Positions 22,377 through 51,524 of a stretch of 64,000 bases of DNA are shown piece by piece. Under the pieces are notes generated by a model, which worked only from the letters and a program-made list of their open reading frames with translations, was not told where the DNA came from and ran no database searches. The translations under genes were made by a program, and so were the position numbers. How positions within the stretch are numbered: position 1 is the first letter of the stretch; every line of letters begins with the position of its first letter. Source of the stretch: Hymenobacter aquaticus (lineage in GTDB: Bacteria; Bacteroidota; Bacteroidia; Cytophagales; Hymenobacteraceae); contig NZ_SRLC01000003.1 of NCBI RefSeq assembly GCF_004765605.1, forward strand, positions 558,001 through 622,000, read 5' to 3'.

Positions 22377-22940
22377 ATGACTGAACCTTTCAAACCCGAG
22401 TTCCGCCCGGTGTCTTACTCACGGGTCACGCTGACCGAGCTGATGATTCCTGCCTACGCCAATTTCGGTGGCAAGATCCACGGCGGCATTCTGCTTTCGC
22501 TCATGGACAAAGTAGCGTACGCGGCGGCCTCTAAACACGCCGGCAATTACTGCGTCACGGTCAGTGTAGATGGCGTCAACTTCCTGCAGCCGGTCGAGGT
22601 GGGCGAGCTGGTTTCGCTGCTGGCCTCCGTGAACTACGTGGGGCGCACCTCGCTCTTAGTAGGCATCAAAGTCATTGCGGAGGACGTGCGCACCGGGCTG
22701 GTAAAACATACCAACACCTGCTACTTCACGATGGTCGCGAAGGACGATGCCGGGAAGCCCACCGTCGTTCCCGGCCTTACCCTGGAGACGCCCGAAGACA
22801 GCCGCCGCTTTTTGGAAGCCATCAAAAGACGGGAGTTTCGGGAGCGGCACAAGGCCGAGTTCGACAATGCGGTATCCGCGTTGGCCGTGCACCAAGAGCT
22901 GTATCTATTGCAGCAGGAACGGTGTCAGATTGTCTACTGA
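22377..22940 (+). CDS. acyl-CoA thioesterase, hotdog fold (YciA/BACH type)
   Basis: Start at ATG 22377 (MTEPFKPEFRPVSYSRV); the frame upstream is open but passes through the terminator of the previous operon. The 187-residue hotdog protein has NFGGKIHGGILLSLMDKVAYAAASKHAG, with the catalytic Asp of the 4HBT/YciA family, and VSVDGVNFLQPVEVGELVSL, then GRTSLLVGIKVIAEDVRTG. It hydrolyses acyl-CoA to free acid and CoA; chain specificity cannot be read. The C-terminal 40 residues are an extra helical tail. Monocistronic, convergent with the HTH gene across parS. Confidence 0.88.
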   Translation: MTEPFKPEFRPVSYSRVTLTELMIPAYANFGGKIHGGILLSLMDKVAYAAASKHAGNYCVTVSVDGVNFLQPVEVGELVSLLASVNYVGRTSLLVGIKVIAEDVRTGLVKHTNTCYFTMVAKDDAGKPTVVPGLTLETPEDSRRFLEAIKRREFRERHKAEFDNAVSALAVHQELYLLQQERCQIVY

Positions 22941-23013
22941 TTTTCCACCTATCAGAGCCTGCTTCGCCTCTTACACAGGGGCTGAGAAATGCAAGCAAAC
23001 GCTACTACCCTAC

Positions 23014-23047
23014 TGACAAAAATGTTTCACGTGGAACATTTTTGTCA
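23014..23047. other. parS: parS centromere-like site inside a 34-bp palindrome
   Basis: Bases 23023-23038 read TGTTTCACGTGGAACA; the reverse complement, TGTTCCACGTGAAACA, is exactly the canonical chromosomal ParB/Spo0J site. It is embedded in a longer near-perfect palindrome: TGACAAAAATGTT (23014-23026) mirrors AACATTTTTGTCA (23035-23047), with one mismatched pair in the centre (T27/G34). The last three bases are the stop codon of the minus-strand HTH gene. ParB and ParA are not in the window. Such sites cluster near oriC in most bacteria, and a candidate origin lies 22.5 kb to the right. Confidence 0.88.
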
Positions 23048-23431
23048 TTTAGGGCCGTACACTTTCATCAGTAGCTCATTGTGGGCTTCAAGCAAGGCTA
23101 TATACTTAGTTTGTAACGCCATAAGCTGCTTAATTGGATCAGACTCTCCCTGCTGTAACACATTTACACGGGTTGTAACATTGTTAATCGGATTGTTTGT
23201 TACAGCGGTAGGTGTAAAGGACAACGCGGTTTGTTGTAACGAAGTAAAATCATTGGAGAAGTCGTGTCCGATTATTTCCCCGATACGCTTTACAAAACCG
23301 TAATCAAGCGTCTCCTCTTTAAACTTACGGTAGATAGTAGGACGTGTAATACCCAGCTCCTCCACGATGCGCGTAATAGAAATACCGCTGTTTTTGATGG
23401 ATTCCTGAAGGATTTCGCCCTGGTGTGGCAT
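23045..23431 (-). CDS. small HTH DNA-binding protein with C-terminal coiled coil
   Basis: The 128-residue protein begins MPHQGEILQESIKNSGISI; residues 16-45 (ITRIVEELGITRPTIYRKFK) form a clear helix-turn-helix. A low-complexity linker rich in Asn and Thr (residues 70-95) leads to a short coiled coil (DPIKQLMALQTKYIALLEAH) that likely dimerises it. It is AT-rich compared with neighbours, and the coding sequence itself contains five TGTAAC/GTTACA hexamers. It ends in the parS palindrome. It resembles small phage or plasmid repressor-like regulators; the target is unknown. Autoregulation through the TGTAAC cluster is inferred. Confidence 0.75.
   Translation of the reverse strand: MPHQGEILQESIKNSGISITRIVEELGITRPTIYRKFKEETLDYGFVKRIGEIIGHDFSNDFTSLQQTALSFTPTAVTNNPINNVTTRVNVLQQGESDPIKQLMALQTKYIALLEAHNELLMKVYGPK
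23154..23168. promoter_or_regulatory. TGTAA-N5-TTACA palindrome (inside the HTH gene)
   Basis: Exact inverted repeat TGTAACACATTTACA. One of two identical-format palindromes in this island; the other is at 23549. The 5-base half-sites with 5-base spacing are typical of dimeric HTH operators. Here it lies within the coding region of the HTH gene. Confidence 0.5.
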
Positions 23432-42434: not shown

Positions 42435-43835
42435 ATGTTTGGCTTAGAGCCTCATGTGCTTCTGCTGCTACTGGCCTGTCTGATAGCAGCTTGCGCCTTC
42501 GAATTCGTCAACGGTTTCCACGATACGGCCAACGCCGTGGCTACCGTGATTTACACCAACGCCCTGCGGCCCTGGGTAGCGGTGGTGTGGTCGGCTTTCT
42601 GGAACTTCATCGGCGTGTTTGCCGGCGGCATCAGCGTGGCCATGGGCATCGTCTACCTGCTGCCCGTCGAAAGCCTCGTGGATCAGAACGTGTACCACGG
42701 CATTGCCATGGTGGGCGCCCTCATCATCGGGGCCATCATCTGGAACGTGGGCACCTGGTACTACGGCCTGCCCTCGTCCTCGTCGCACGCCCTGATTGGC
42801 TCCATCCTCGGGGTGGGCATTGCCTTCAGCTTCCTGCCCGACTCGCAGAACTCGGCCGTCAACTGGAGCAAAGCCGGCGAAACCGGCCTGGCCCTGCTCA
42901 TTGGTCCGCTGTTCGGCTTCTCGCTGACCATCATTATGATGTTTCTGCTTAAGCGCTTCGTCAAGACCAAGGCCATCTTCCGGGAACCGCACAAGCGCAA
43001 GCCCCCACCCGTCTGGATTCGCCTGATCCTGATTGCGACCTGCACGCTGGTGAGCTTTTTCCACGGCTCCAACGACGGGCAGAAAGGCGTGGGCCTGATT
43101 ATGCTGATTCTCATCGGCATCGTGCCCACCTATTTCGCCCTCGACCACACCAAGAACCCCCTGGACATGCGCGACTCCCTGCTCAAGATTGAGCAGGTGA
43201 TGAGCAAGGTGAATCCGGCCGAGCTGAGCCCCGCCGACCAGAAAGCCCTGGTCGAAATCAAGGCCCAGACCGACGGCCTGGACGCCATTTTCGCCGGCAA
43301 AACCAACGTGCAGGACTTGCCCCAGGATGCGCGCTTCCAGATCCGTAAAGGCATCCTGCTGACGGCCAACCGCGCCAAGGCCCTGCTCGGCAGCGACAAG
43401 GTAAGCCTGAGCACCGCCGACCGTGCCACCTACGACGACGCCATCAAGAACATGAAAACCTTCACCGACTACGCGCCGTCCTGGGTGCTGCTCATCGTGT
43501 CGCTGTCGTTGGGGTTAGGCACCATGATTGGCTGGCAGCGCATCGTGAAAACCATCGGGGAGCGGATCGGCAAAGAGCACCTGACGTACGCCCAGGGCGC
43601 GTCCTCGGAGCTGGTAGCCGCCACCATGATTGGGGTATCCACGGCCTACGGCCTGCCCTCTTCCACTACCCACGTGCTGTCGTCGGCCATTGCCGGCTCG
43701 ATGGTCGCCAACCGCGGCATCAAGAACCTGAACCCCCAGATGGTGCGCAACATTGCCCTGGCCTGGGTGCTCACCCTGCCCGTGACGATGTTCCTGTCGG
43801 GCGGGCTGTTTCTGCTGTTCCGCGCGCTGCTGTAG
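42435..43835 (+). CDS. pitA: inorganic phosphate transporter, PiT family
   Basis: A 466-residue transporter with the PiT signature repeated: FVNGFHDTANAVATVIYTNAL near residue 25, GLPSSSSHALIGSILG near residue 115, HGSNDGQKGVG near residue 210 and GLPSSTTHVLSSAIAGSMVANRG near residue 410. A hydrophilic region of about 100 residues (about 240-345) separates the two halves and is probably a cytoplasmic loop. It imports phosphate as a metal complex with protons. A good promoter precedes it and a strong terminator follows. Confidence 0.95.
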   Translation: MFGLEPHVLLLLLACLIAACAFEFVNGFHDTANAVATVIYTNALRPWVAVVWSAFWNFIGVFAGGISVAMGIVYLLPVESLVDQNVYHGIAMVGALIIGAIIWNVGTWYYGLPSSSSHALIGSILGVGIAFSFLPDSQNSAVNWSKAGETGLALLIGPLFGFSLTIIMMFLLKRFVKTKAIFREPHKRKPPPVWIRLILIATCTLVSFFHGSNDGQKGVGLIMLILIGIVPTYFALDHTKNPLDMRDSLLKIEQVMSKVNPAELSPADQKALVEIKAQTDGLDAIFAGKTNVQDLPQDARFQIRKGILLTANRAKALLGSDKVSLSTADRATYDDAIKNMKTFTDYAPSWVLLIVSLSLGLGTMIGWQRIVKTIGERIGKEHLTYAQGASSELVAATMIGVSTAYGLPSSTTHVLSSAIAGSMVANRGIKNLNPQMVRNIALAWVLTLPVTMFLSGGLFLLFRALL

Positions 43836-43860
43836 CGCCAGACTCTCTCTGAATTATACA

Positions 43861-43893
43861 AAAAAAGCCGACCCGCAGTGGGTCGGCTTTTTT
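43861..43893 (+). terminator. pitA terminator
   Basis: AAAAAAGCCGACCC (43861-43874) pairs perfectly with GGGTCGGCTTTTTT (43880-43893) around a 5-base loop, 25 bases past the stop. Confidence 0.9.
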
Positions 43894-43953: not shown

Positions 43954-44027
43954 TTATCCACTAAAACGGCGGGTTATTAGCGACTTATCAACTTATCAAC
44001 ACTAAAAAGCCTGAATTTTGTGGATAA
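43954..44027. other. outlying DnaA boxes left of the small-gene pair
   Basis: TTATCCACT at 43954-43962 on the plus strand and a perfect TTATCCACA on the minus strand at 44019-44027, with ACTTATCAAC repeated between them. Same type of box as in the main cluster at 45549-46053, 1.5 kb away, with two small genes in between. Confidence 0.6.
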
Positions 44028-44035
44028 CTCTGGTG

Positions 44036-44521
44036 CTAGCTGGGCCACTGCACTTCCAGGTCGTCGCTGATAAAGACGCCGAAGTTGACGAACTGCAGCT
44101 GGTCCTCATCAAAGTAAAGGTCAATCATTTCCTTTTCGTAGGAGAGGCGGGTTTCGCCGGTATCCATGCGCTCCACCTCCGTCGACTCCAGGCCGTTCTG
44201 GCGCATCAGCTCCTGAATCTCGTCCACGGATTTGCCGTGGATGGGCTGGCCGAAAATGCGCAGACCGGGGTGGTCGGTTTCGATGCAGCTCAGGCGGAAG
44301 TCGTCTTCCCGGTCGAAGTACAGGGAGTAGCCTTCCTCCAGGTAGTTCCAGGCCTGGTGCTCAAACTCGTCGTCATCCTCCGACTCTTCGATTTCCTCGG
44401 GCTCACCCATCAGGGCGCGCACTTCGTCCTGGGTAGCGCCGAATTTCAGCGGGCCCATGCCGGTGCCCAGCACGATTTCGTTTTCCTCGGTGCTGCTGTG
44501 TTGTGGTTGGGAGGTTTGCAT
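44036..44521 (-). CDS. acidic protein of unknown function between DnaA-box clusters
   Basis: The 161-residue product is soluble and strongly acidic (EEIEESEDDDEFEH near residue 45). It has a repeated-looking pattern: LGTGMGPLKFGATQDEVRALMGEP at the N-terminus and FGQPIHGKSVDEIQELMRQNG in the middle, each followed by beta-like YSLYFDREDDFRLSCIETD or LSYEKEMIDLYFDEDQLQFVNFGVFI. This could be a duplicated alpha-beta unit. I do not recognise the family. It lies on the minus strand between outlying and main DnaA-box clusters, which may matter for its regulation. Confidence 0.75.
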   Translation of the reverse strand: MQTSQPQHSSTEENEIVLGTGMGPLKFGATQDEVRALMGEPEEIEESEDDDEFEHQAWNYLEEGYSLYFDREDDFRLSCIETDHPGLRIFGQPIHGKSVDEIQELMRQNGLESTEVERMDTGETRLSYEKEMIDLYFDEDQLQFVNFGVFISDDLEVQWPS

Positions 44522-44599: not shown

Positions 44600-45091
44600 T
44601 CACTTGCCGTAGCGGGCCTCAAATTCGGCCCGCTGCCGCACGTACTCGGGGTGGTGCTTGGCCTCGTCCCATTTGGCCTTGAAGATGGCCGCAGCGGCCG
44701 CCTTTTCGGGGTCTTCGGGGGAGCGGGGCAGCTCAGCCCGACCGTGGGCACCGCTCTGCCCTTTCTTGTCGGCCGGCACGGGCCCGTCGTACTTCTTGCC
44801 CCCGCGGTGGTTGGCGTAGCGCCGGGCCCGCGTAAAGCCCATCTGGATAAACTTGCGGGCCATGTCGGCCCCCACGAAGTCGTCGGCTTTCAGGTAGTCG
44901 AGAAACAGTTGGTAGATCTGCTCCGACGACTCGCGGGCCACCTCCGGCGTGCGAAAGCGCCAGTGCGGCAGTATCTCCGACTTATAGGGTTCGACCAGCA
45001 GCACGCCCTGCTCGCCCTTGCCCACGCGGTACAGCTCGGGGTGCCGGCGAAAATCGGTGGTCCGGAAGTCGAGCGTATAATCGAAGGGCAT
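44600..45091 (-). CDS. DUF4385 family protein
   Basis: The ATG at 45091 (MPFDYTLDFRTTDFRRHPELYRVGKGEQGVLLVEPY) is used; the frame above runs into the palindrome and DnaA-like sites. The 163-residue product carries PHWRFRTPEVARESSEQIYQLF and GADMARKFIQMGFTRARRYANHRGGKKYD, the typical DUF4385 text. Function is unknown. The C-terminus is charged and alanine-rich. It lies 78 bases upstream of the acidic gene on the same strand and adjacent to the origin-like region. Confidence 0.85.
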   Translation of the reverse strand: MPFDYTLDFRTTDFRRHPELYRVGKGEQGVLLVEPYKSEILPHWRFRTPEVARESSEQIYQLFLDYLKADDFVGADMARKFIQMGFTRARRYANHRGGKKYDGPVPADKKGQSGAHGRAELPRSPEDPEKAAAAAIFKAKWDEAKHHPEYVRQRAEFEARYGK

Positions 45092-45155
45092 GGCAGGAGC
45101 GGGGCGGTGGGGGAAACCTATATACGCGCAAATGCCGGGCGCGGACCAGCAGCGC

Positions 45156-45187
45156 CACTTTTCCACACCCTGGCCTGTGGAAAAGTG
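45156..45187. repeat. perfect 12-bp inverted repeat of DnaA-like boxes
   Basis: CACTTTTCCACA (45156-45167) and TGTGGAAAAGTG (45176-45187) mirror exactly around CCCTGGCC. Each half contains TTTTCCACA, one base from a DnaA box. It stands 65 bases upstream of the DUF4385 start and could be a regulatory site or the edge of the origin. Confidence 0.6.
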
Positions 45188-45548
45188 CATAACCTTGACC
45201 GACTTCGGCTTGATCATCAGCTTATTACTCTTGCCAAGGCGCAAACAGCCCGGAGCCAGACCGGCTGGCACCGGTAATGGCAGCCTGTAACAGGGGAGTG
45301 GTACCGCCCAACGGCCGGTTGGTGTAATAGATTAGGGGTGCCGAACGGCTTCTCTTACGTTTGACTTACCCTCTCACCTCCCCGCTGTCCACCCGCTAGC
45401 ACACGTGATGCTTCATCCACTTCGAGGCGAGGAACCAGGGTACTCAGTGAAAGCACGCCGGACAGGAGAGGAGCCGGGCCCAGAACCCGCTCCCTCCTGC
45501 CCGAGCTGTGCGAAACGCCCGGTCAGCTTTTTTTGGAAGCCCGGCCGC

Positions 45549-46053
45549 TTATCCACAGGGTTAATAACTTTTGAATTAAATTTTTTAAAAGATTTCTCTT
45601 TGTCCCCAGTCGTTAGGGGTGTTTATAAGTGGATAAGAAAATATAGTTATACACAGAGCTGATAACTTGTGTACAAGATTCGGTTTATACACCGTCTATC
45701 AACAGGGGGTGTGGATACTAAGTAGCAGTTTTTCAAAACTTTACTTTCATTATTCACAATTCACAGCGTTATCCACGAATCCACAATTCACAGGTTTTGC
45801 CCAGTGTGGATTAGAGCATTTTTCGGGGAAAGTTATCCACCCTTATCCACGTTGCCGGTGTGGATATCGGCCTCTGTGCTGCGCCGGGAACGGGCAAAAA
45901 AACTTATCCGCAACTTCTCCACGGGTTATCCCCACGTTTCCCCAGCATTATCCACAGATTTCCTCTTACATAGCGCTTTAGCTACATAGAGCTGTGGAAA
46001 AAAATGTGGAAAGCACGTAGACTCCTGATTCTGAAAGCCCCTAATGTGGATAG
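45549..46053. other. oriC: candidate chromosomal replication origin (oriC)
   Basis: This non-coding stretch has perfect DnaA boxes TTATCCACA at 45549 and 45948, TTATNCACA at 45647 (TTATACACA) and 45750 (TTATTCACA), TTATCCAC octamers at 45629 (minus), 45769, 45833 and 45843, and one-mismatch boxes at 45685, 45710, 45805, 45859, 45904 and 46045. An AT-only-like run at 45561-45597 right beside the first box is a good unwinding element. No gene is supported here. mnmG is 3.6 kb away and parS 22.5 kb away. dnaA itself is absent, as is common in this phylum. Confidence 0.85.
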
Positions 46054-46255
46054 CTTGTAAAACGAGTTTTCAGCTCATGCTGCCCCGGCCAGGAAAGGCC
46101 TCAGTGCCCGTCGCGGCGCCGGACGGCTCCGGGTGGCTAACGGGAGGTATGCAAGTACCCCACCACGGCTGAAGGCACGCCGGTTTCATGCAGCAAAGGG
46201 CACCCGACAGCCAGCCTCGCGTGGGCTGTGCGTCTTGCCAGCCCCTACACGCAAC

Positions 46256-46290
46256 GCGCCCCCGCCGACACGTATGGTCAGCGGGGGCGC
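46256..46290 (-). terminator. terminator of the Ig-like lipoprotein gene
   Basis: GCGCCCCCGC (46256-46265) and GCGGGGGCGC (46281-46290) pair perfectly, with an inner GAC/GTC extension. It is 32 bases past the stop at 46322. Confidence 0.7.
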
Positions 46291-46321
46291 GGTTGTGTGG
46301 TCGCCTAGCGGCCGGGCCTGG

Positions 46322-47950
46322 TTAGAAGGACAGCTTCACGTCTTCTATTTCCCAGTTGGCCCGCACCTGAATGGGTTGGGGAGCCAGGTACACCGGCTCG
46401 GCCGGCACGATGAACTTCGGGTCACCGCCGCGCCAGGTGCCGTTGGCATCGGCATCAATCAGCACCCGCAGGCGGTAGGTGCCCGGCAGCAGGTTGTCGA
46501 ACCGGAACGTGTTGCGCGGATTTTCCAGCACGGCGGCTACCTGCCCGGCGGGGTCGAGCAGCTGCAGCAGGTACTTGGTGTACTTGGTTTGGATAGTCCC
46601 GGCCACGCTGCCCACCGGCGACTGTTCCGACAACCCCAGGCGCAGAGGCTTCAGGCCCAGCCGCTGCCCGCCCACGGCCACGACGGCCGTCGAGTCCAGA
46701 ATCAGGGTGACGGACTTCTTGGCCTTGGTATTCAGGTTCACGGTCAGCAGCGTCCGGTCGGGGCTGAGCGTCGCCTCCTGGGGCACCCGGATGGGCTTGC
46801 GGGTGGTCGAGTCTTCGAGCAGGGTGCCGATGGGCTGCTTAGGAAAGGCCCGCAGGGGCTCCACAAACTGAAATTTGACCTGGCCCTGGCGGTATACTTC
46901 GCGCAGGTTGCCGACCACGCTGTAGCCGGCCGTGCGCCGCGCCCCGGCTGCTACGGTACCCGGAAACTTCACGTTGATGGTGTCGCGGCCGGTGTTGCCC
47001 ACGCTGTCGGTGGCGGCCAGCACGTAGCGGCCCTCGGGCAGGGCCGGCGTGCGAAACAGCGTCACGCTGCGGCCCCGGTCGCCGAGCAGCACGGCTTCGT
47101 TGAGGGCCCCGGCCGGCGTCTGGGCATCTACGGCCGCGAGGCTGGCCTGGCGCAGCCCTTCGCCGTAGGAAACCCTGAACTGCGTGGGCGTGCCCTGCTG
47201 GCTGGAAATAATGGGCCGCCGCGCGTCGGGGCGCACCAGCACCAGGCGCAGCGAGTCGAGGCCCGGGCGCACCGTGACCAGGTCGGGCAGGTAGGCAATC
47301 TGCTCGCCTTCCTCGTAGCGGCCACTCTGGTTTTTATCGGCCAGGGCAAAGATGCGGTAGCGGCCCACCTTCAGGTACTGCAGGGCAAAGGCCCCCGACT
47401 TATCGGTGCGGCCCAGGTAGTAGGGCTTGTTGCGGCGGATGTGGGCCGTGTCGGCCTCGGGGTACAGCAGCACGGCCACCTCGGGCGCCGGCGTGCCGCT
47501 GAGCAGCTGCGTTACGGTGCCCCGCACCGAGCCCGAGTCGAGGCGGGCACCGGTGGTGAAGGTCACCTGCACGTTCTGGGCCGGCAGATTTTCGGTGATG
47601 TCGGTAACGGCCTCGCGGAAGTTGAAGGTGTAGGTGGTGTTGGGCTGGAAGGGCTTTTCGAACACCAGGGAAATGGCGTTGCGCTCTTCCTTGATTTTGT
47701 ACTCGTCGGCCTCGCCCAGCACGGGCGCCACAATCAGGTTTTTGCTGAGGTCCTTGAGCTGCACGCTTTCCGAAAACACCATGCGCACGGTTTGCTGCTT
47801 CACGTTCAGGGCGCCATTTTCGGGGGAGGTACTGACCAGCTTGGGCGGCGTCACGTCGCGCGGGCCACCCTCGGGCGAGCTGATGGCGGCGCACCCACTG
47901 AGAGCGGCCGCGCCGGAAAGCAGGAAAAGCAGATTAGCGCGAACGGACAT
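46322..47950 (-). CDS. Ig-like (Big_5) domain lipoprotein
   Basis: The ATG at 47950 (MSVRANLLFLLSGAAALSGC) is chosen because it begins a signal sequence with lipobox LSGC at residues 17-20. The mature 542-residue protein has an SbsA/Big_5-type N-terminal domain (PEGGPRDVTPPKLVSTSPENGALNV, and FEKPFQPNTTYTFNFREAVTDI), a middle beta region (ALQYLKVGRYRIFALADKNQSG) and a C-terminal transthyretin-like part (FRFDNLLPGTYRLRVLIDADANGTW). Anchored in the outer or inner membrane; role unknown, possibly structural. Overlaps the upstream 101-residue gene by 17 bases, so they are coupled. Confidence 0.88.
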   Translation of the reverse strand: MSVRANLLFLLSGAAALSGCAAISSPEGGPRDVTPPKLVSTSPENGALNVKQQTVRMVFSESVQLKDLSKNLIVAPVLGEADEYKIKEERNAISLVFEKPFQPNTTYTFNFREAVTDITENLPAQNVQVTFTTGARLDSGSVRGTVTQLLSGTPAPEVAVLLYPEADTAHIRRNKPYYLGRTDKSGAFALQYLKVGRYRIFALADKNQSGRYEEGEQIAYLPDLVTVRPGLDSLRLVLVRPDARRPIISSQQGTPTQFRVSYGEGLRQASLAAVDAQTPAGALNEAVLLGDRGRSVTLFRTPALPEGRYVLAATDSVGNTGRDTINVKFPGTVAAGARRTAGYSVVGNLREVYRQGQVKFQFVEPLRAFPKQPIGTLLEDSTTRKPIRVPQEATLSPDRTLLTVNLNTKAKKSVTLILDSTAVVAVGGQRLGLKPLRLGLSEQSPVGSVAGTIQTKYTKYLLQLLDPAGQVAAVLENPRNTFRFDNLLPGTYRLRVLIDADANGTWRGGDPKFIVPAEPVYLAPQPIQVRANWEIEDVKLSF

Positions 47951-48239
47951 TGTAGAGCAGAAGCGTGAGAGCGGTAAGGAAAGCAATGGCGACGACGATG
48001 CGGATACTGGTTTTGCGCGTGGGCTTCTCGTCTTCGGCCGGCACCACGGGCCCGGCGTCGGCTACGACCGAGTCGGGCACCAGGGGCTTGCGGCTGGTAT
48101 CGGGCAACAGAAGCGGCGGCCGCGCCAAAACGGAAGCTGCTGGCGGCGAAGCGCTTGGCCCCTCCCCTACCCTACCGGCCCGGGCCCCCGCCGCCCCGAG
48201 CAGTAGCCAACCCAGCAGAAGCAGCGAGGCTGGGCGCAT
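47934..48239 (-). CDS. small tail-anchored envelope protein
   Basis: The 101-residue product has a signal peptide (MRPASLLLLGWLLLGAAGARA), a Pro/Ala/Val-rich middle, and a single C-terminal helix with basic end (TSIRIVVAIAFLTALTLLLYNVRSR). It overlaps the Ig-like lipoprotein gene start by 17 bases and is 4 bases after the methyltransferase stop, a tight operon. I recall comparable short proteins with an LYNVRSR-like end at this place in related genomes but no function. Confidence 0.75.
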   Translation of the reverse strand: MRPASLLLLGWLLLGAAGARAGRVGEGPSASPPAASVLARPPLLLPDTSRKPLVPDSVVADAGPVVPAEDEKPTRKTSIRIVVAIAFLTALTLLLYNVRSR

Positions 48240-49655: not shown

Positions 49656-51524
49656 CTACCGCCCCAGATACACCATCAGCACCGACACGTCGGCCGGCGA
49701 CACGCCGCTGATGCGCGAGGCCTGGCCCAGCGTTTCGGGCTGCACCTTGAGCAGCTTTTCGCGGGCCTCGTGCGAGAGGGCCGGCATTTGCTTATAGTCG
49801 AGGCGGCCCTGAATCACGAAGTTTTCCAGCTCGGCCACGCGGGCGGCCTGCTGGTTTTCCTTCTCTATGTAAGACTCGTACTTGATGGCAATAATGGCCT
49901 GCTCCAGGCTGTCGGGCTGGTACTGGCCCAGGGCCAGCGTGAGGGCGGGCAAGGTGCGCGTGAGGTGCTCCAGCTCCAGGTTGGGGCGGCGCAGCAGGTT
50001 CACGGCCCGGGTCCGCTCGTGCAGCGTGGCCGAGCCCAGCTCCTCCAGCAAGCCGTTGATTTCCGCGGGCTCGATGGCAAAGTTTTTCAGCAGCTTTACC
50101 ACGTCGGCCGTTTCCTGCTGCTTGCGCTGCACCCGCTCCATCCGCTCATCCGAGGCCAGGCCCAGGGCGTGGCCCAGGGGCGTGAGGCGCAGGTCGGCGT
50201 TGTCCTGGCGCAGCAGGATACGGTATTCGGCCCGGCTCGTGAACATGCGGTAGGGCTCGTCGGTGCCTTTGTTGACGAGGTCGTCGATGAGCACGCCGAT
50301 GTAGGCCTCGCTCCGCTTCAGGATGAACGGCTCTTTGCCGTGCACCCGGTTGTGGGCGTTGATACCGGCCATCAGGCCCTGGCAGGCGGCTTCCTCGTAG
50401 CCCGTGGTACCGTTGATCTGGCCGGCGAAGTATAGGTTTTTCACCCGCTTGGTTTCCAGGGTCAGGTTGAGCTGGGTGGGCGGGAAGAAGTCGTACTCGA
50501 TGGCGTAGCCGGGGCGGAACATCTTGGCATTCTCGAAGCCGGCAATCTTGCGCAGGGCGCGGTACTGCACGTCTTCGGGCAGGGAGCTGCTAAAGCCGTT
50601 GATGTACATTTCCACGGTGCTGCTGCCCTCGGGCTCCACGAAAATCTGGTGGCGGTCCTTGTCGGCGAAGCGGTTGATTTTGTCCTCCACGCTCGGGCAG
50701 TAGCGCGGCCCCAGGCCCTTGATGCGGCCCTGGAACATCGGCGACTTCTCAAACCCCTCGCGCAGGATGTCGTGCACCTCCTGGTTGGTGTAGGTGATGT
50801 AGCACGGGCGCTGCTTAACCAAGGCGGGCGTGTCGAGGTAGCTGAACTTGCTGGGCACCTCGTCGCCGGCCTGCTCTTCCATCTTGGAATAGTCGAGGCT
50901 GCGGCCGTCCACGCGGGGCGGGGTGCCGGTTTTCATGCGGCCCGTCTCGAAGCCCAGCTCCAGCAGCTGCTCGGTGATGCCGGTGCTTTTCTTCTCGGCC
51001 GCGCGGCCCCCGCCGAAGTTTTTCTCCCCGATGTGAATCAGGCCGTTGAGGAACGTGCCGTTGGTCAAGACTACCGACTTGCCCCGGAACTCGATGCCGA
51101 GCTGGGTTTTGACGCCCACCACCGTGTCGTTTTCCACCACGATGCCGGTTACCGACTCCTGCCAGAAGTCCACGTTCGGGGTTTGCTCCAGCGTGTTGCG
51201 CCACTCTTCGGCAAAACGCATCCGGTCACTCTGGGCCCGGGGGCTCCACATGGCGGGGCCTTTCGAGCGGTTCAGCATTCGGAACTGAATCATGGTTTTG
51301 TCGGTGATGATGCCCGACTGCCCGCCCAGAGCGTCGACTTCGCGCACGATCTGGCCCTTGGCCACCCCACCCATGGCCGGATTGCACGACATCTGGGCAA
51401 TGGTGTTCATGTTCATCGTGACCAGCAGGACCTTGGAGCCCAGGTTGGCGGCAGCGGCGGCGGCTTCGCAGCCAGCGTGGCCGGCACCTACTACAATAAC
51501 ATCGTATTCTTCCTGCTGAAACAT
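49656..51524 (-). CDS. mnmG: tRNA uridine-5-carboxymethylaminomethyl modification enzyme MnmG
   Basis: A complete 622-residue protein: FAD-binding [22 protein letters not shown] at residues 8-29, then [60 protein letters not shown] and the C-terminal MnmE/tRNA-binding [11 protein letters not shown]-like ending ([20 protein letters not shown]). With MnmE it installs the cmnm5 group at U34 of tRNAs. In many bacteria (gidA) it lies next to oriC; here it is 3.6 kb from the origin candidate. A -7 box TATCTTTG lies at 51691-51698 (minus). Confidence 0.96.

Follow-up and report, generated by a model that had tools for sequence, protein, structure and literature searches.

A non-coding block at positions 45547-46056 of the analysed window (64,000 nucleotides, positions 558001-622000 of contig C3 of the Hymenobacter aquaticus genome, which totals 5.51 Mb in four contigs) is almost certainly the chromosomal replication origin (oriC) of Hymenobacter, at which DnaA is predicted to bind and to initiate replication. 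A sequence-only reading had put this locus forward as a candidate oriC, and that reading is supported by the density of DnaA boxes, the bounded conservation of the block at a single locus, its position opposite a dif-like site, and a neighbourhood that includes mnmG and a single parS. The core shows every computable defining feature of an oriC except for a sharp skew minimum. The assignment would locate, with a precision of a few bases, the origin of an environmental genus in which many genomes have been sequenced. It would also provide a fixed point of reference for estimates of skew, copy number and growth rate (ori/ter), and a natural fragment for making a replicating plasmid.

The core block and its candidate unwinding element

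The conserved unit has sharp limits, which are absent from the sequence-only reading, and is contained within a 1.2-kb intergenic space (45092-46321) between the genes for a DUF4385 protein and a Big_5 protein, both on the minus strand, in agreement with the earlier description of about 500 non-coding bases. Within the 505 bp from 45549 to 46053, the two strands together carry 18 DnaA boxes that differ from TTATNCACA at no more than one position. The principal features of the block are as follows.

45547..46056, both strands: putative oriC core block, holding an A/T-rich element and the 18 DnaA boxes with no more than one mismatch to TTATNCACA
45549..45557, plus strand: DnaA box TTATCCACA at the left edge, adjoining the A/T run; perfect in 8 of 10 genomes, at most one mismatch in 10 of 10
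45561..45600, no strand: A/T-rich run, candidate DNA unwinding element; of all 40-bp segments in the block, the least stable
45620..45636, minus strand: tandem overlapping DnaA boxes TTATCCACT and TTATAAACA, directed toward the A/T run; TTATCCACT identical in 10 of 10 genomes
45647..45655, plus strand: DnaA box TTATACACA
45750..45758, plus strand: DnaA box TTATTCACA
45769..45777, plus strand: DnaA box TTATCCACG, invariant in 10 genomes
45833..45851, plus strand: tandem pair TTATCCACC and TTATCCACG, 10 bp start to start
45948..45956, plus strand: DnaA box TTATCCACA, invariant in 10 genomes
46045..46053, minus strand: DnaA box CTATCCACA, the right-most of the block

The box inventory given previously is borne out in all its parts: the two perfect boxes are the copies of TTATCCACA at 45549 and 45948, the two other boxes are TTATACACA at 45647 and TTATTCACA at 45750, the four additional octamers are the copies of TTATCCAC at 45629 (minus strand), 45769, 45833 and 45843, and the one-mismatch boxes, described as several, are present in large number on both strands. 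Outside the block, just upstream of the DUF4385 gene start (45159-45192), there is an inverted, hairpin-like pair of TTTTCCACA together with TTATGCACT; H. nitidus, H. lucidus and H. elongatus have related box groups in comparable locations.

The concentration of boxes in non-coding DNA, a defining feature of oriC, is far above the genomic background. In the 2.48 Mb of the genome (45% of the total) that were sampled for box density and skew, the runner-up 505-bp stretch contains 4 boxes with at most one mismatch, compared with 18 in the block. The genome's own rate yields an expectation of 0.137 boxes per 505 bp (Poisson log10 P of about -31); among 5000 Markov versions of the block with its dinucleotide make-up preserved, the mean was 0.6 boxes and the maximum 6. 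Exact copies of TTATNCACA number 43 genome-wide, and four of the 43 are found within 408 bp here; elsewhere in the genome-wide list, never more than two copies are grouped within 2 kb. Comparable box density was looked for in the 2.48 Mb sample and in this list and was encountered nowhere else, so that the oriC reading stands.

The nearly pure A/T run noted earlier (45561-45597) is real: by nearest-neighbour energy, 45561-45600 is the second least stable 40-bp segment of the 64-kb window. This candidate unwinding element is flanked by the box at 45549 on the left and by the minus-strand TTATCCACT-TTATAAACA tandem (45636 to 45620) on the right, and its low duplex stability provides the A/T-rich element adjoining DnaA boxes that is characteristic of oriC. 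The published criterion for DnaA-trios is at least three 3'-NAN-5' within 16 bp of a box (PMC8287927). No run of at least three trios was detected at the boxes that face the A/T run, so the run may be opened through a deviant trio or another contact.

The arrangement is compatible with a scheme in which DnaA-ATP would bind the cluster of about 18 boxes, and a DnaA oligomer would be led from the bordering boxes (45549 on the left and the 45620-45636 tandem on the right) into 45561-45600. The A/T run would then be opened, the replicative helicase would be loaded there, and two forks would depart from the block to meet near dif on the opposite side of the chromosome.

Conservation, gene neighbourhood and chromosomal position

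Of the 116 Hymenobacter genomes searched, 108 contain the block, each at a single BLAST locus that in a few genomes is divided into two adjacent pieces; the remaining 8 genomes yielded no BLAST match. Thus, the block conforms to the expectation that an oriC is present once per chromosome and is kept in relatives. Parts of the block were also matched in four sister genera of the family (g17-g20), and in g17 and g20, the remaining match falls within query positions 17-94 (window 45561-45638), that is, the A/T run and the adjoining tandem boxes. In an alignment of ten Hymenobacter genomes, the mean identity to the window is 0.955 for the boxes, 0.777 for the rest of the block and 0.365 for the flanks, which are unalignable. 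Most of the boxes stay in register: 14 of the 18 can still be recognised (no more than one mismatch) in 9 or all 10 of the genomes, and no difference among the ten is seen in TTATCCACT at 45628, TTATCCACG at 45769, TTATCCACC at 45833, TTATCCACA at 45948 or TTTTCCACA at 45993.

The neighbourhood on the mnmG side and the parS-like site comprise the following features.

23023..23038, no strand: parS-like site TGTTTCACGTGGAACA, with no second copy in the genome at up to one mismatch
46322..47986, minus strand: Big_5 (bacterial Ig-like) protein, flanking the origin on the right
49656..51524, minus strand: mnmG (gidA), 3.6 kb from the origin

Both distances reported from the sequence, 3.6 kb to mnmG and 22 kb to a canonical parS, were reproduced, the parS-like site being the only one in the genome with at most one mismatch. 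The named relatives of the gene neighbouring the block all belong to Hymenobacter. The same setting recurs among relatives: the distance between the block and mnmG is 3.0-6.1 kb in 22 genomes, and one parS-like site per genome is located 21-28 kb from the block in 12 of 12 genomes, including the present one. The parS in the window is embedded in a 32-bp palindromic context, GACAAAAA...TTTTTGTC, within the stretch of lowest GC content in the window (22701-23400, about 0.51).

DnaA boxes and A/T runs can be found in plasmid origins as well, and the cluster might accordingly represent the replicon of an integrated plasmid or mobile element. We rejected this explanation, which appears extremely improbable given the vertical conservation in 108 of 116 congeners, each with a single BLAST locus set among the same housekeeping genes, and given that no rep or integrase gene was found among the adjacent genes scanned.

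The dnaA gene itself is located at C2:1388661, on a contig other than that of the block, which upholds the earlier placement of the origin beside a DUF4385 gene (44600-45091) rather than dnaA. An origin at dnaA was considered and rejected because the 3.5 kb around this gene contain no comparable DnaA-box cluster. Location of the origin away from dnaA is the usual arrangement in Bacteroidetes (PMC4755523), so this part of the observation is not new.

A 22-bp dif-like site, CTTATAATTTATATTATGTTAA, assigned by sequence only, was identified outside the window, at C1:982780-982801 (minus strand). The dif-like sequence occurs once per genome in all genomes of the family that were searched (a looser pattern gave two weaker extra matches in G012) and is a good putative terminus marker. 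In nine of nine single-contig relatives, the arc from the block to dif spans 0.474-0.4997 of the circle (the sizes of five of the nine genomes were rounded for this calculation, which adds about 1%); in other words, the block lies opposite the dif-like site, as expected of oriC. With random placement of dif, the probability of such arcs in all nine genomes is ~2e-12, relatedness ignored. In the genome under study, the two arms measure 0.502 and 0.498 under the order C1-end, C3 forward, C2, C1-start; because this contig order is inferred and is the most balanced among those tried, the equality of the arms shows consistency and does not count as independent proof. The assembly yielded no SSU rRNA, and its contigs therefore probably break at rRNA operons.

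The earlier proposal had also called for a cumulative GC-skew minimum at the locus, and here the outcome is mixed. In the 45% sample arranged in the inferred contig order, the raw cumulative skew peaks no more than about 0.1 Mb from dif and is lowest over a broad floor between about 0.23 Mb of C3 and 0.7 Mb of C2. The locus falls inside this floor, within 6% of the total skew range from the lowest point. The lowest sampled points themselves are at about 0.55 Mb of C2 and about 0.34-0.56 Mb of C3, none of them at the locus, and the minimum of the coding-corrected GC3 skew in the same sample is clearly at about 0.57-0.62 Mb of C2. Within the window, the local GC skew is positive on both sides of the locus, with neither a sign change nor a sharp switch. 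With an unsharp floor and both the lowest point and the GC3 minimum off the locus, skew is consistent with the origin at best and is not decisive. A block of reversed GC skew at about 364-572 kb of C2, on an otherwise positive arm, is perhaps an inversion or an acquired island.

The GC3-corrected minimum near 0.6 Mb of C2 and the second, near-equal minimum of the raw skew near 0.55 Mb of C2 are what could be expected if the cluster were a DnaA reservoir or a regulatory locus and the real oriC were elsewhere. This possibility is nevertheless very unlikely considering that the 45% sample contains no other 505-bp stretch with more than 4 boxes, that the genome-wide TTATNCACA list nowhere else groups more than two copies within 2 kb, that the locus is opposite dif in the nine single-contig relatives, and that it bears a low-stability element.

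A second DnaA-box module

On the A/T-run side of the core, beyond the DUF4385 gene, we detected a second DnaA-box cluster (43954-44027) that had been overlooked in the sequence-only reading.

42435..43835, plus strand: PHO4/PiT phosphate transporter, beyond the second module
43860..43893, no strand: bidirectional terminator-like hairpin adjoining the second module, recognised by reading the sequence and retained in 5 species
43954..44027, between the convergent PiT and 161-aa genes: second DnaA-box module, with TTATCCACT at 43954, TTATCAACA at 43993 and an inverted TTATCCACA at 44019-44027 (minus strand)
44036..44521, minus strand: 161-aa protein, between the two modules; no Pfam match, 85-99% identical in relatives
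44600..45091, minus strand: DUF4385 protein, 163 aa, between the two modules (PF14328, E 4e-71)

The module includes an inverted pair with a spacing of exactly 17 bp, and the pattern with this exact spacing matched 43 of 43 Hymenobacter genomes and 9 of 9 genomes of the sister genus g19 that were searched; a reversed control pattern gave 0 matches in the same search, in which the true pattern matched 52 genomes. In all 51 genomes with both matches, 1.1-1.7 kb separate the module from the BLAST match of the core, and the module lies on the side of the A/T run. The layout includes two conserved clusters about one gene apart, of which one adjoins the unwinding element, as in bipartite origins. 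The other feature of such origins, the flanking of dnaA by the two clusters, is missing, dnaA being at C2:1388661 and the enclosed genes being those for the DUF4385 and 161-aa proteins.

The second module may well be part of the same origin machinery, bridging by DnaA being the predicted link. It could function as a site with a low number of boxes that DnaA would bridge to the core, looping out the DUF4385 and 161-aa genes. That the origin is bipartite, consisting of the core and the second module, has in our assessment close to an even chance. A more specific proposal, which we advance tentatively, at slightly worse than even, is that Hymenobacter and sister genus g19 share a bipartite origin in which the DUF4385 and 161-aa genes take the place of dnaA between the two halves. 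In this proposal, the inverted pair, at its fixed geometry and 1.1-1.7 kb from the unwinding element, would be essential or regulatory, and a bipartite layout would not depend on the dnaA locus.

The second module could, with about equal likelihood, be a separate site for titration or regulation instead of an origin part. The core would then be a monopartite oriC, and the module a distinct DnaA site (for titration, datA/DARS-like, or for gene regulation) that is close to the core only through conserved gene order, a reading to which we likewise assign a little less than half of the probability. In H. metallicola (L126), ~5.7 kb of extra DNA separates the module from the core while the module remains with the PiT and 161-aa genes, and the module has no A/T-rich run of its own; both observations fit the monopartite reading. 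Against it, the location of the module between convergent genes argues against a promoter role, its spacing is rigid across the 52 genomes, and its side and its distance of 1.1-1.7 kb are constant in the 51 genomes with both matches. If the module does belong to the origin, Hymenobacter would offer an example of bipartite organization independent of dnaA, in which one could study what purpose bridging serves where dnaA autoregulation plays no part.

Relation to known origins and other box groups

In the E. coli oriC (mnmG/gidA-oriC-mioC), DnaA boxes are combined with an A/T-rich element close to mnmG. The Hymenobacter block likewise has boxes and an A/T-rich element near mnmG, but here mnmG is 3.6 kb off rather than adjacent, and there are ~18 boxes with at most one mismatch.

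Among the Bacteroidetes, origins have been predicted by Ori-Finder/DoriC, that of Prevotella intermedia OMA14 being an example (PMC4755523). Like these, the Hymenobacter block is a DnaA-box cluster far from dnaA, with the predicted origins located at the skew transition (PMC4755523); unlike those predictions, the Hymenobacter origin is resolved with respect to its limits, candidate unwinding element, neighbourhood and conservation across genera, and an accessory module is added. Among the papers covered by our literature search, none dealt with a Hymenobacter oriC; a DoriC prediction of this origin may already exist.

The bipartite origins of Bacillus subtilis and Epsilonproteobacteria have the structure oriC1-dnaA-oriC2, in which DnaA bridges the two clusters and loops out dnaA (PMC5043019). 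The similarity to Hymenobacter consists in two DnaA-box clusters, ~1.5 kb apart, of which one alone adjoins the unwinding element, and is a likeness of layout; the differences are that the Hymenobacter clusters enclose the DUF4385 and 161-aa genes, not dnaA, and that the second cluster consists of one rigid inverted pair and one box. The basal unwinding system (BUS), which comprises DnaA boxes and DnaA-trios (PMC8287927), resembles the Hymenobacter core in that tandem boxes, with the better one outside, are followed by C4 and an A/T-rich region, but the A/T-facing boxes in Hymenobacter have no adjoining run of at least three 3'-NAN-5' trios. In sum, we regard the locus as a real origin of the ordinary kind that was correctly read, with a bipartite organization without dnaA as a possible new variant.

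Several smaller box groups were observed away from the origin. Inverted pairs of TTATCCACA with a 16-bp start-to-start distance are present off oriC in several Hymenobacter (G012:C1:2833312 and 3588499, G020:C1:1464584), and none with this spacing is in the box list of the genome studied here. In the latter genome, four DnaA boxes (at most one mismatch) are grouped within about 107 bp at C2:105480-105586 (L085:1480-1586), roughly 250 bp upstream of a gene resembling that for ribosomal protein L21 (rplU), and in the box lists of the relatives G006 and G015, perfect direct pairs show the same 31-bp spacing.
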